Shown piece after piece: positions 23,830-41,432 of a stretch of 44,749 nt of DNA (positions within the stretch are counted from its first letter, which is position 1; each line of letters begins with the position of its first letter). The DNA comes from Treponema sp. Its GTDB lineage: Bacteria; Spirochaetota; Spirochaetia; Treponematales; Treponemataceae. Under the pieces are notes generated by a model. The model made no database searches. It was not told the origin of the DNA and worked only from the letters and a program-made list of their open reading frames with translations. The DNA lies in the NCBI GenBank assembly GCA_012519415.1, contig JAAYQG010000012.1:1-44749 (forward strand), given 5' to 3'. The position numbers and the translations under genes were made by a program.

Positions 23830-23979
23830 CGAAAACTTTGCCGGAAATAGCGTCAAAGTTTTCGTTTTCAAGTTTGCGTCGCGAACTTTGTTATTTATTG
23901 CACTTTCTCATTTCATTGCGAAAGTGCGGTAAAAAGTCAATTCGGAAGTTGAAACTTCCTCATTGAATTTTTATGGGAG
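23830..23979 (+). repeat. Structured repeat, copy A (upstream of fabG)
   Basis: Four consecutive hairpins: I CGAAAACTTTG/CAAAGTTTTCG (23830-23864); II AAGTTTGC/GCGAACTT; III GCACTTTC/GAAAGTGC; IV an outer stem TCAAT/ATTGA flanked by AAAAA and TTTTT, with inner stem GGAAGT/ACTTCC. It ends TTTTTATGGGAG at 23979, whose GGGAG serves as the fabG ribosome-binding site. Related copies are at 26505, 36201, 39199 and 39357. It interrupts an otherwise tightly packed operon. Confidence 0.8.
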
Positions 23980-23985
23980 ATGAAA

Positions 23986-32760: not shown

Positions 32761-32810
32761 AAATAAAAGAAATTGAATCCGACTGCGATACTTTTTGAAA
32801 ACAACAATGT
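32761..32810 (+). repeat. 50-nt dispersed repeat, copy 1
   Basis: The block with core GACTGCGATAC, followed by TTTTTGAAAACAACAATGT, recurs with changes at 35134-35183. Both copies lie about 60-120 nt upstream of a gene start on the same strand. Confidence 0.6.
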
Positions 32811-32869
32811 CGCTGTTGCTTAAAATTTTTATGCAAGTTTGTGATGTGATTGTTGGTTAGGAAGATGTG

Positions 32870-34972
32870 ATGTCTGATAATTTACGTACTGTTATTAAAG
32901 TTGATGCAGAAACATGCATTAATTGCCGTCGCTGCATTGCAGTTTGCCCTGTCAAATTTTCTAACGATGCTTCAGGAGATCATGTAGAAGTAATCAATGA
33001 ATTGTGTGTAGGATGTGGTGCATGTATTTCAGCATGTCCTACAGGAGCGCGTTACGGAGTAGATGATTCTGAAAAGTTTTTTGAAGCATTAGAGAAAAAA
33101 GAACCAATTGTTGCAATCGTTGCTCCGGCTGTAGCAACATGTTTTGATACAAATTATCTTTCTTTTAACGCTTGGCTCGCTTCAATGGGAGTTTCTGCCA
33201 TATTTGACGTAAGTTTCGGTGCGGAACTTACTGTAAAATCGTATGTAGAATATCTTAAAAAGAATAAGCCGCAAGCACTTCTTGCACAGCCTTGTCCTGC
33301 TCTTGTTTCGTATGTTGAGCTTTATTATCCTGATTTAATTCAGTATTTGGCTCCGGCAGATAGTCCGATGGCACACACTATGAAAATGATTAGACGTTAT
33401 TTCCCTCAATTCAGCAATCATAAAATAGCTGTCATTTCACCTTGTTATGCAAAACGTCGTGAATTTGATGCTGTCGGTTTAGGTGATTATAATGTTTCTA
33501 TTGTTGCTATAGAAAAGTATATTCTTGACCACGATATTCAAATAAACAAATATCCGCCGCGAGAATTTGATGGGCCAAAAGCAGAAAGAGCTGTTTTGTT
33601 TTCTATGCCAGGCGGATTAATGCGCACTGTTGCTCGTGAATTACCGAAATCGCTACTTAAAATAAGAAAAGTTGAGGGAGTTCCTGAAGTATACGAGTAT
33701 TTTTCAAGTTTAGATGAAACTTTAAAAAAAGGAACAAATATTACGTACAAAGTAATTGATTGTTTAAGTTGTAGGCTTGGTTGCAATGGCGGTTCTGCAA
33801 CTTCTAACAGACACAGGTCGTCTGGTTCTTTAGAATATGATGTTGAAAAACGAAACATTCAATCTGTTGAAGATAATCGAAAAAAATACTTTTTACGTAC
33901 AGCACGTGGTGCAGAAAAGGCTTTTTCAAGGAGTCTTAATAAATATTGGGAAAAAAACCTTTATAATCGTGTTTATACAAACAGGCACAATGTTTACAAG
34001 CAATTTATAAAAGAACCTACAAAAGAAGAAATAAGAAAGGTTCATATTGCCATGCACAAAACAAAAGCAAAAGACTTTTTGAATTGCGGTGCGTGTGGAT
34101 ATTTAGACTGCGATCAAATGGCTTTAGCTGTTTATAATGGTTTTAATCGCCCTGAAAACTGTAGCCACTACAATGATAAAGCAATAAAAATTGCTTCGGA
34201 AGAAAGACACTCAAAAGTAAAAGAAGCAATCGATACTGTTGTAGATTCAAGCGTAGAGAAATTTTCAGTTAATATGGAACAAATTAAAAAGCTTGCCGCA
34301 AAAACAGTAGATATGACTAGTTATGTAACACAGTCTTCTGCTTCAATCGAAGAGATGGTTGCAAATATTGCTTCAATCAATTCTGTTTTAGACCAAAACA
34401 ATGAAGCTGTATCAAACCTTGCAATGGCTTCCAGTGATGGCAAAAAAGGCTTGAATGTTGTATCTGAACATATCAAACAGATTGCAGCTGATTCACAAAA
34501 TCTTGTTCAAGCAAGTTCAATCATTGAAGAAATTGCAACACAGACAAACCTTTTGGCAATGAATGCTGCAATTGAAGCGGCACATGCAGGCAATGCAGGC
34601 AAAGGATTTGCCGTTGTTGCAGATGAAATTCGTAAACTTGCAGAAAATTCAGGCAAACAAGCGCAGACAATTTCAAATGTTTTGAAACAAATTAAAGAAA
34701 AAATAGATAAAACATCCGAATCGTCTGTTGAAGCGCAAAAACGATTTGATCAAGTTGTTGAACTTTCTAATAAGGTTAAAGACCAAGAAAACGTAATTAA
34801 AACTTCTATCGAGGAGCAAAGTCATGGCGGAAAACAAGTGCTTTCTTCTTTAGCACTTATGAATGAAGTTACAAAGGAAGTTCGTTCCGAAACCGAATCT
34901 CTTTTAAATACAAGTACAACAATTCAAAATGAGATTCAAAACCTGGCAAGCACAACAGGTGTTGAACAATAA
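32870..34972 (+). CDS. [FeFe]-hydrogenase-like / methyl-accepting chemotaxis fusion protein
   Basis: A 700-aa soluble protein with four parts: a two-cluster ferredoxin ([24 protein letters not shown]); an H-cluster domain (about 80-310); a small 4Fe-4S domain ([19 protein letters not shown], about 405-430); and a methyl-accepting signalling domain (about 440-690) with the conserved tip [40 protein letters not shown]-cluster ligand equivalents are Cys142 (QPCPAL), Cys192 ([10 protein letters not shown]), Cys301 and Cys305 (SCRLGCNGG). The proton-relay Cys of the catalytic TSCCP motif is Pro here, so turnover is unlikely and H2 or redox sensing more plausible. No transmembrane helix is present, so it should be a cytoplasmic receptor signalling to CheA. 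AGGA lies about 8 nt before the ATG. Confidence 0.85.
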
Positions 34973-35298
34973 ATTTTGAGCAGATTTGAATTTATTCATT
35001 ACACTGTCTGTAACTTTTTGCATTAATAGTTTATTTTTGATACGATTAGACATTAAAACGACAGTGTTTGAATAATATCTATGAAAATTAGATTTGATTC
35101 GTGTGGACGGCTCAATGTTCCGACGATTTGCGTCAAAATGAAAAGAATTGAATTGACTGCGATACCTTTTGAGAACAATATGTTTTGTTACCAACCGCAT
35201 CTTGCAACAAATGTGAAGTTTCGAGCAGGATTTGTAGCGAATCTACAGTGATATTGTTGTTTTGTTATCTTGTCAGAGAATTTGTGGAGGATTTTCTT
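34973..35298. other. Intergenic region upstream of M48 peptidase
   Basis: 326 nt without a gene. It holds the second copy of the 50-nt dispersed repeat (35134-35183). No confident promoter or terminator was identified. Confidence 0.4.
35134..35183 (+). repeat. 50-nt dispersed repeat, copy 2
   Basis: Shares ATTGACTGCGATACC and TTTTGAGAACAA with 32761-32810, with small insertions and substitutions. It lies about 115 nt before the M48 peptidase start. Confidence 0.6.
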
Positions 35299-36200: not shown

Positions 36201-36373
36201 GAGTTTGCGTTGCAAACTTTATTATTAAAAAAAATGATGAGTAGCTCGGTCAAGATTGTGCCGTATTGCTTGCTCATTATATTCATTGCACTTTTTCATT
36301 TTATTGCGAAAGTGCAGGTAAAATGTTACTGAGAAAACTTCAGTTTTTGAAAACAACATTTTATAAGAGGGAG
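36201..36373 (+). repeat. Structured repeat, copy C (upstream of 5'-nucleotidase)
   Basis: Hairpin II (AGTTTGC/GCAAACT, loop GTT), an extra segment of about 60 nt with its own pairing (ATGAG/CTCAT), hairpin III (GCACTTT/AAAGTGC, 36288-36315) and hairpin IV with outer stem AAAATGTT/AACATTTT and inner GAAAACT/AGTTTTT. Hairpin I is missing. The 3' end reads TTATAAGAGGGAG and supplies the ribosome-binding site of the next gene. Confidence 0.7.
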
Positions 36374-39198: not shown

Positions 39199-39356
39199 AG
39201 CAATCAAAACTTTGCCGGAGATGGCGTCAAAGTTTTGATTTGCAAAGTTTGCGTCGCAAACTTTATTATATATTGCACTTTCTCATTTCATTACGAAAGT
39301 GCGGTAAAAAGTTCCTATCGAAAACTGAAGTTTTCTCAAGTAACTTTTTATGGGAG
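39199..39356 (+). repeat. Structured repeat, tandem copy B1
   Basis: Hairpin I ATCAAAACTTTG/CAAAGTTTTGAT, II AAAGTTTGC/GCAAACTTT, III GCACTTTC/GAAAGTGC, IV outer AAAAAGTT/AACTTTTT with inner GAAAACT/AGTTTTC. It is bounded on both sides by ATGGGAG (39192-39198 and 39350-39356). Stems I and IV differ in sequence from copy A but still pair. Confidence 0.85.
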
Positions 39357-39510
39357 AGCAATCAAAACTTTGCCGGAGATGGCGTCAAAATTTTCGTTCC
39401 CAAGTTTGCGACGCAAACTTTATTATTGATTGCTGTTTTTCACTTCGTTACAAAACAGCGTAAAAACTCGAATCGGAAGTTGAAACTTCCTCATCGAGTT
39501 TTTATGGGAG
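39357..39510 (+). repeat. Structured repeat, tandem copy B2
   Basis: Direct continuation of B1 starting AGCAATCAAAACTTTGCCGG, identical to B1 for the first 36 nt. Hairpin III is GCTGTTTT/AAAACAGC, replacing GCACTTTC/GAAAGTGC; hairpin IV has outer ACTCGA/TCGAGT and inner GGAAGT/ACTTCC. It ends ATGGGAG (39504-39510), but no plus-strand gene follows; the convergent permease gene ends 11 nt away. Confidence 0.85.
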
Positions 39511-39520
39511 AAAAATTTAA

Positions 39521-40956: not shown

Positions 40957-41432
40957 ATGAAGATTAAGAGTTATTCGACATCAATGCCAAACAGAGATAT
41001 TGTTGTTTGGGATTCTAAATTTGAAATAAAAATACCGTTTATTGATGCGCAACATAAAAAACTCATTGAATTATGCAACAATTTGCATAAAGCTATTATT
41101 GCAATGCCGGATTCTTCCGGTGTCGTGGTCGATGATTGGCAAGATTCGCTTTTAAATGCGTTGCGAGAATGTGTTGATTATACGCAAACACACTTTCGAG
41201 ACGAAGAAAACCTTATGCAGGCGGCAGGTTTTGTAGATTTTACACAACATAAATCGTTCCACTCTGCTTTTGTAAAGAAAATTCTTGAAACGGCGAAATC
41301 TTTTGAAAAAAAGATAAAATTAGCGCATTACGATTTGTTTATTTTTTGTATGACTGGATTTTAGAACACATTGCTTATAAAGATAAGCTTTATGTAAAAT
41401 ATGTTCTTGAGTATTACCAAAAAACAAATTAA
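40957..41432 (+). pseudogene. Bacteriohemerythrin, frameshifted before the last iron ligands
   Basis: The frame from 40957 encodes a hemerythrin O2-binding four-helix protein: VWDSKFEIKIPFIDAQHKKLIELCNN, THFRDEENLM (HxxxE) and QHKSFHSAF. It reaches a stop at 41362-41364 after 135 aa. The missing C-terminal helix is present in another frame, reading YDWILEHIAYKDKLYVKYVLEYY, with the conserved HxxxxD pair, and ends at 41432. Adding one T to the T6 tract at 41343-41348 restores a 158-codon gene. Without the last His and Asp the di-iron site cannot form properly. It is either decayed, phase-variable, or a sequence error. Confidence 0.75.

Follow-up and report, generated by a model that had tools for sequence, protein, structure and literature searches.

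A soluble chemoreceptor of the hydrogenase-like group C2 in Treponema and its relation to the HydEFG maturases

We analysed a window of 44,749 nucleotides from Treponema sp. (GCA_012519415.1, contig JAAYQG010000012.1). At 32870..34972, on the forward strand, it holds a gene for a group C2-type, [FeFe]-hydrogenase-like chemoreceptor, called from its open reading frame and Pfam matches: an ATG start, 700 residues plus a stop codon, and no internal stops. A Shine-Dalgarno-like AGGAAG was read in the sequence 5 nt upstream of the ATG (32859..32864, forward strand), and an in-frame GTG lies at 32867, just 5' of it. For promoter and terminator signals at the gene, counts were not clearly higher than in shuffled sequences.

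The 24-nt direct repeat GACTGCGATACYTTTTGARAACAA flanks the gene, one copy per intergenic stretch (32781-32804 and 35155-35178, 92% alike). Shuffles predict none by chance, and none was seen in the other loci of the same genome that we examined. Besides, reading the window revealed a family of repeats scattered through intergenic DNA, built on an inverted GCACTTTC...GAAAGTGC core, in three to four copies (23832-23980, 36280-36323, and 39207-39511). A few kilobases downstream of the receptor, a small bacteriohaemerythrin-like protein with a haemerythrin domain (40957-41364, forward strand) is a possible O2-binding protein.

The receptor, whose features all lie on the forward strand, begins with two [4Fe-4S] ferredoxin motifs located by Pfam (Fer4 twice, residues 9-61) and alignment: C16, C19, C22, and C26 (32915..32947), and C46, C49, C52, and C56 (33005..33037). 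They are followed by the H-domain (Fe_hyd_lg_C, residues 79-308, 33104..33793, Pfam 6.4e-31), which Foldseek also matched to [FeFe] hydrogenases, and by a C-terminal Cx2Cx4Cx16C [4Fe-4S] motif (C406, C409, C414, and C431; 34085..34162) within the Pfam FeS domain PF04060 (404-432, 1e-6). Fused straight to this cluster domain is a coiled-coil MCP signalling hairpin (residues 436-700, 34175..34969), identified by Pfam (MCPsignal, 520-668, 4.9e-30), MCP alignment, and AlphaFold2. All Pfam matches exceed the gathering cut-offs.

No gaps were needed to align the hairpin with seven other MCPs of the genome, which are membrane receptors; the alignment places its tip –the CheA/CheW contact region– at 34541..34591. 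One full consensus methylation site is predicted by pattern match at residues 645-654 (34802..34831). Neither a HAMP domain nor, in a Pfam scan up to E = 1, a PAS domain was found in the receptor, and no membrane helix was detected (top 19-residue Kyte-Doolittle mean of 1.36). The preliminary description of this DNA was thus right to propose a methyl-accepting domain without a membrane helix.

The AlphaFold2 model (mean pLDDT 87, pTM 0.66, 47 homologues as input) presents a compact N-terminal part followed by a single long helical hairpin that spans residues 432-700. When searched against the PDB with Foldseek, the best 50 matches listed were [FeFe] hydrogenases throughout, with CbA5H at the top (8zqd, E 2.7e-19, probability 1.00). 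The match of domain anatomy and fold to hydrogenases and MCPs is far beyond chance. Sequence and predicted fold both mark the N-terminal part as hydrogenase-like: besides two ferredoxin clusters and the H-cluster pocket, it has a site for a third accessory cluster.

To describe the pocket, we use CpI numbering and an alignment of 100 C2 relatives. In the L1 motif QPCPA (residues 140-144, 33287..33301), P141 occupies the C299 position and C142 that of the ligand C300. In the L2 motif SPCYAK (190-195, 33437..33454), S190 corresponds to M353, C192 to the ligand C355, and K195 to K358. The L3 motif DCLSCRLGC (297-305, 33758..33784) places C298 at V496, L299 at M497, and C301 and C305 at the ligands C499 and C503. 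Positions 142, 192, 301, and 305, named earlier as the H-cluster cysteines, were exact.

These four cysteines and the four of the C-terminal cluster are each present in 100/100 relatives, and C16, C19, C22, and C26 in 97-98/100, the remainder being gaps. The 353 position is Ser or Thr and the 497 position Leu in all 100; P166 is also invariant, and the Lys358 equivalent is kept in 99/100. Cys replaces V496 in 99/100, and this C298 equivalent was absent from all the A, B, D-like, PAS594-type, GGDEF-EAL, and second-MCP-clade sequences examined. At the 299 position, Pro is found in 96/100 and Thr or Ser in the others. We therefore rejected Pro141 as an oddity of one protein; judging by this alignment, it is a signature of the C2 clade.

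Among HydDB sensory sequences, about 10% have Pro at the C299 position and 17% have Cys (PMC10055695). Sensory HydS proteins lacking C299 (TmHydS with A131, TamHydS with A137) retain H2 turnover, and the A131C variant of TmHydS presented lower activity (PMC10055695, PMC10407848). Thus, Pro141 alone cannot tell a sensor from an enzyme. The earlier observation that the proton-relay Cys is Pro in QPCPAL holds, but it does not mark the protein as a sensor only.

We assign the receptor as an ordinary member of [FeFe] group C2 through the group description of HydDB, which lists C2 as 'Chemotactic (putative)' (PMC5037454). It is a known kind of receptor and not a new class. The assignment rests on the four H-cluster cysteines, the fused MCPsignal domain, and phylogenetic separation from groups A and B. 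An H-domain phylogeny had been proposed as a check, and our tree of 63 H-domain proteins, which has long branches and one unstable row (L054), separated the MCP-fused C2 rows from the A3 and B rows by a branch with support 76. In a profile comparison, every full-length member of the C2 clade carried the MCP domain.

The species collection yielded at least 565 confirmed candidate relatives. The best 80 of them came from Treponema, other Spirochaetota, Brevinematales, Ignavibacteria, Bacteroidetes, Auribacterota, and Geobacteraceae MAGs. Around these best 80, no neighbour beyond the receptor family was constant and the next commonest neighbour family reached 15/80 loci, so a conserved operon context was rejected; the absence of a conserved neighbour is consistent with a self-contained receptor.

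Two clades lay next to C2 in the tree, one made up of GGDEF-EAL fusions, the other a second set of MCP-fused H-domain proteins. The former (L059, L060, L061, L062, and L069) combine an H-domain with GGDEF and EAL domains in 861-1154 aa, are likely an H-domain/c-di-GMP sensor class in treponemes, and occur in both HydG-positive and HydG-negative genomes. The latter (L056, L057, and L058; 752-811 aa) groups with the GGDEF-EAL fusions and not with C2.

A C-terminal Cx2Cx4Cx16C motif and the loss of C299 are hallmarks of the sensory groups C and D (M2f/M2e) (PMC8163306), and the receptor has both, with the exact C406-C431 spacing and P141. It lacks the PAS domain that follows the C-terminal cluster in the biochemical group C (M2f): in the AlphaFold2 model, the cluster domain passes straight into the long helix where group C would have PAS. 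The receptor is also set apart from catalytic group A, with P141, S190, and L299 instead of Cys299, Met353, and Met497, and an NCBIfam group A score of 110 bits against a cut-off of 406. As a cytoplasmic MCP, it combines its hairpin and lack of a membrane helix with CheA encoded in the genome (two genes above the cut-off for the CheA dimerisation domain). We found no description of the C2 signature (QPCP, SPC, DCLxC), of the PAS absence, or of the HydEFG mismatch reported below in the literature searched.

The source genome (2.45 Mb, 98% complete) encodes HydE (513 bits), HydF (537 bits), and HydG (922 bits), all exceeding the curated cut-offs. It had been proposed that a lack of these maturases, together with a lack of any H-cluster in the purified protein, would point to an Fe-S redox sensor only; all three maturases are present and, therefore, this receptor most likely carries a full H-cluster. 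The genome also encodes a HydABC-type hydrogenase (NCBIfam group A6, 790 bits vs. a cut-off of 765), which makes H2 a relevant metabolite. A second sensory-like H-domain protein is encoded elsewhere in it (L017:1093-2472, reverse strand, G000:C90). It has 460 aa, no MCP domain, and Ser at both the C299 and M353 positions, and it adjoins short ORFs resembling an anti-sigma-type ATPase.

For this receptor, we propose H-cluster-based sensing of H2 or redox state feeding CheA by a soluble C2-type chemoreceptor, and we give this mechanism an even chance of being correct. HydEFG would load the full H-cluster into the receptor. The state of the H-cluster would then shift in response to H2 in the cytoplasm or, by way of the accessory clusters, to the redox poise of the ferredoxin/NADH pool. 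The resulting conformational change may reach the coiled coil by way of the C-terminal cluster domain and there alter CheA activity, so that the spirochaete would move along H2 or redox gradients. A pocket with P141, S190, and L299 in place of C299, M353, and M497 would suit a slow, state-holding sensor rather than a fast catalyst. The route through the C-terminal cluster is weakened by TamHydS, whose C-terminal cluster gave no response to H2 (PMC13104023).

To relate the receptor to maturation, we surveyed 145 Treponemataceae genomes, many of them fragmented assemblies, counting a protein as C2 when it matched the sensor part with an E-value of at most 1e-90. C2 receptors were found in 57/145 genomes. 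HydG was present in 51 genomes and HydE in 49, and all 49 fall within the 51; thus, the search appears reliable. Among the C2-bearing genomes, 27/57 have HydG, and neither HydG nor HydE was found in the other 30. When considering only good assemblies (>=90% complete, <=5% contaminated), both were missing from 26/39 C2 genomes. A permissive HydG search of the 30 genomes (E up to 1e-3) retrieved nothing above the cut-off, and 27 of them gave no match at all. The presence of C2 and that of HydG were weakly associated (odds ratio 2.4, Fisher p 0.02, uncorrected for phylogeny).

HydF exceeded its cut-off in two of these 30 genomes (G047 and G068), and none of HydG, HydE, and HydF was found in 28/57 C2-bearing genomes. 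In G047 (L168:3737-5955, G047:C74), HydF adjoins a divergent HydE-like radical SAM gene that scored 155 bits, below the HydE cut-off. Since the strict threshold missed this gene, the absence of HydE is less firm than that of HydG.

The C2 pocket was alike on both sides of this divide. When comparing 26 HydG-positive with 26 HydG-negative C2 proteins, the cluster cysteines, Lys195, Ser190, Pro141, Cys298, and Leu299 were equally kept, and mean column entropy was no higher in the HydG-negative set, although that set may be less diverse, which makes the entropies an uneven comparison. Between close HydG-negative relatives with unsaturated synonymous sites (G094 vs. G089 and G099, G073 vs. G077), dN/dS of the sensor part was 0.04-0.07, values that indicate purifying selection on C2 in genomes without HydG. 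On the C2 tree, the presence and absence of HydG require at least 14 changes, and well-supported branches force seven of these; lateral transfer of C2 may account for part of the pattern. Close homologues with and without HydEFG exist; the C2 protein of the HydEFG-less G127, for instance, is 85% identical to those of the HydG-positive G041 and G048.

Some C2 genes are broken. Frameshifted or decayed copies were seen in three HydG-negative genomes (G035, G113, and G122; L169, L170, and L171), and in the same set a second copy in G095 and the N-terminus in G116 are also damaged. As a sign of function lost without HydG, this decay is not decisive: the HydG-positive G018 carries a broken copy too, and most HydG-negative copies are intact.

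The same pocket under purifying selection in HydEFG-less genomes means that the conserved function of C2 does not track the known [2Fe] maturation genes, and that the conservation of the whole family cannot be put down to a [2Fe] made by HydEFG. Thus, the proposal of an H-domain sensor feeding chemotaxis stands in its anatomy and general idea, which match HydDB group C2, whereas H2 as the general ligand of C2 is less secure because about half of the C2-bearing genomes keep this pocket without HydEFG. We lean slightly against, while taking seriously, the broader claim that C2 and other Treponemataceae H-domain proteins work without HydEFG-made [2Fe] in many species, either with Fe-S clusters only or through an undescribed route to the H-cluster. 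Selection for a HydEFG-independent function in much of the C2 family favours one of these two for those members, and each is also a rival explanation for the receptor described here.

According to the first, C2 would be an Fe-S-only redox sensor, in which [4Fe-4S]H and the accessory clusters, lacking [2Fe], signal oxidants or the cellular redox state to CheA. Conservation of the pocket would then have a structural basis or reflect the binding of some other ligand. The lack of HydE and HydG in two thirds of the good C2 genomes and of HydF in 28 of the 30 HydG-negative ones argues for it, together with the similar pockets, the low dN/dS, and the repeated changes of HydG on the tree. Moreover, C298, which is specific to the clade and adjacent to the cluster ligands, could take part in thiol or redox chemistry. 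However, the source genome does have HydEFG, and the residues that in catalytic enzymes hold the [2Fe] ligands are kept (K195 and P166), a need that is not obvious without [2Fe]. Group A HydA with an intact relay Cys can also persist in HydEFG-less genomes, which rather suggests that H-clusters are still made there. We consider an Fe-S-only sensor possible but rather unlikely.

The HydA proteins in question have intact group A motifs and were found, without HydG and HydE, in seven genomes: G003 (L166), G008 (L157), G014 (L158), G015 (L161), G019 (L156), G036 (L160), and G039 (L159), of which G015 is a one-contig genome. They carry TSCCPGW or TSCCPAW, MPCxAK, and EVMAC or EIMAC, mostly in HydABC-like operons. 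Since HydG- and HydE-negative genomes can keep intact HydABC operons, the puzzle is lineage-wide and not specific to C2. Our literature search on Treponema and HydEFG retrieved nothing relevant.

These seven genomes also argue for the second rival, in which another maturation route supplies [2Fe] in HydEFG-less treponemes and all C2 receptors are true H2 sensors; the HydF kept by the HydG-less G047 and G068, next to the HydE-like gene in G047, points the same way. We know of no candidate gene for such a route. Besides, several gut treponemes have not been reported to make H2, and their HydABC might work without it. We regard this route as improbable, clearly more so than an Fe-S-only sensor. 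Finally, H-clusters react with CO and O2 in the TamHydS literature (PMC8163306), but it is very improbable that the receptor senses some other gas or an oxidant (CO, O2, or NO) attacking the H-cluster or the Fe-S clusters, with no pointer in sequence or gene context and no conserved neighbour genes.

C2 receptors have been proposed as a molecular basis of bacterial H2 taxis in guts and sediments, habitats in which H2 gradients determine which organisms grow. The HydEFG comparison bears on two questions: which of the two, H2 or the redox state, C2 responds to, and whether H-clusters can also be made by a second route. In the literature searched, we found neither a measured ligand nor a purified protein for any C2 receptor.

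Characterised HydS proteins take up [2Fe] and respond to H2, and TamHydS carries A299, S353, and L497 (PMC8163306, PMC10407848). At the sequence level, the substitution pattern of the receptor resembles theirs. It shares with TmHydS (group C, Thermotoga maritima) two N-terminal clusters, a C-terminal [4Fe-4S] cluster, and an H-domain without C299, M353, and M497. However, TmHydS has a PAS domain and A131, G177, and S267, whereas the receptor has P141, S190, and L299, together with Cys298 and the MCP domain, and no PAS. With TamHydS (group D, Thermoanaerobacter mathranii) it shares the substitutions at 353 and 497 and the C-terminal Cx2Cx4Cx16C; TamHydS lacks a fused signalling domain, and its residue 299 is Ala where the receptor has Pro.

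Compared to cytoplasmic MCPs, the receptor has the same hairpin, methylation-site consensus, and lack of a transmembrane helix, but its sensor is an H-domain and its C-terminal arm is shorter by 43 residues than in six of seven other MCPs of the genome (143 vs. 186 residues from the tip motif onward).

Putative H2 sensor/transducer H-domain proteins of termite-gut treponemes are reportedly treated in the 2012 work of Ballor. Such proteins have also been described for termite-gut treponemes and Fibrobacteres (Warnecke 2007, as cited in PMC4704652). They share part of the phylum with the receptor and a proposed role in orienting cells in H2 gradients, a likeness drawn by description and not sequence by sequence; in contrast, the nearest named relative of the receptor among the matches listed is a water-buffalo rumen Spirochaetaceae MAG, at 77% over the sensor part. 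In HydDB group C2 itself, an MCP signalling domain is attached to an H-domain that has accessory clusters, and H2 sensing via chemotaxis is proposed; the receptor differs from it in nothing essential.
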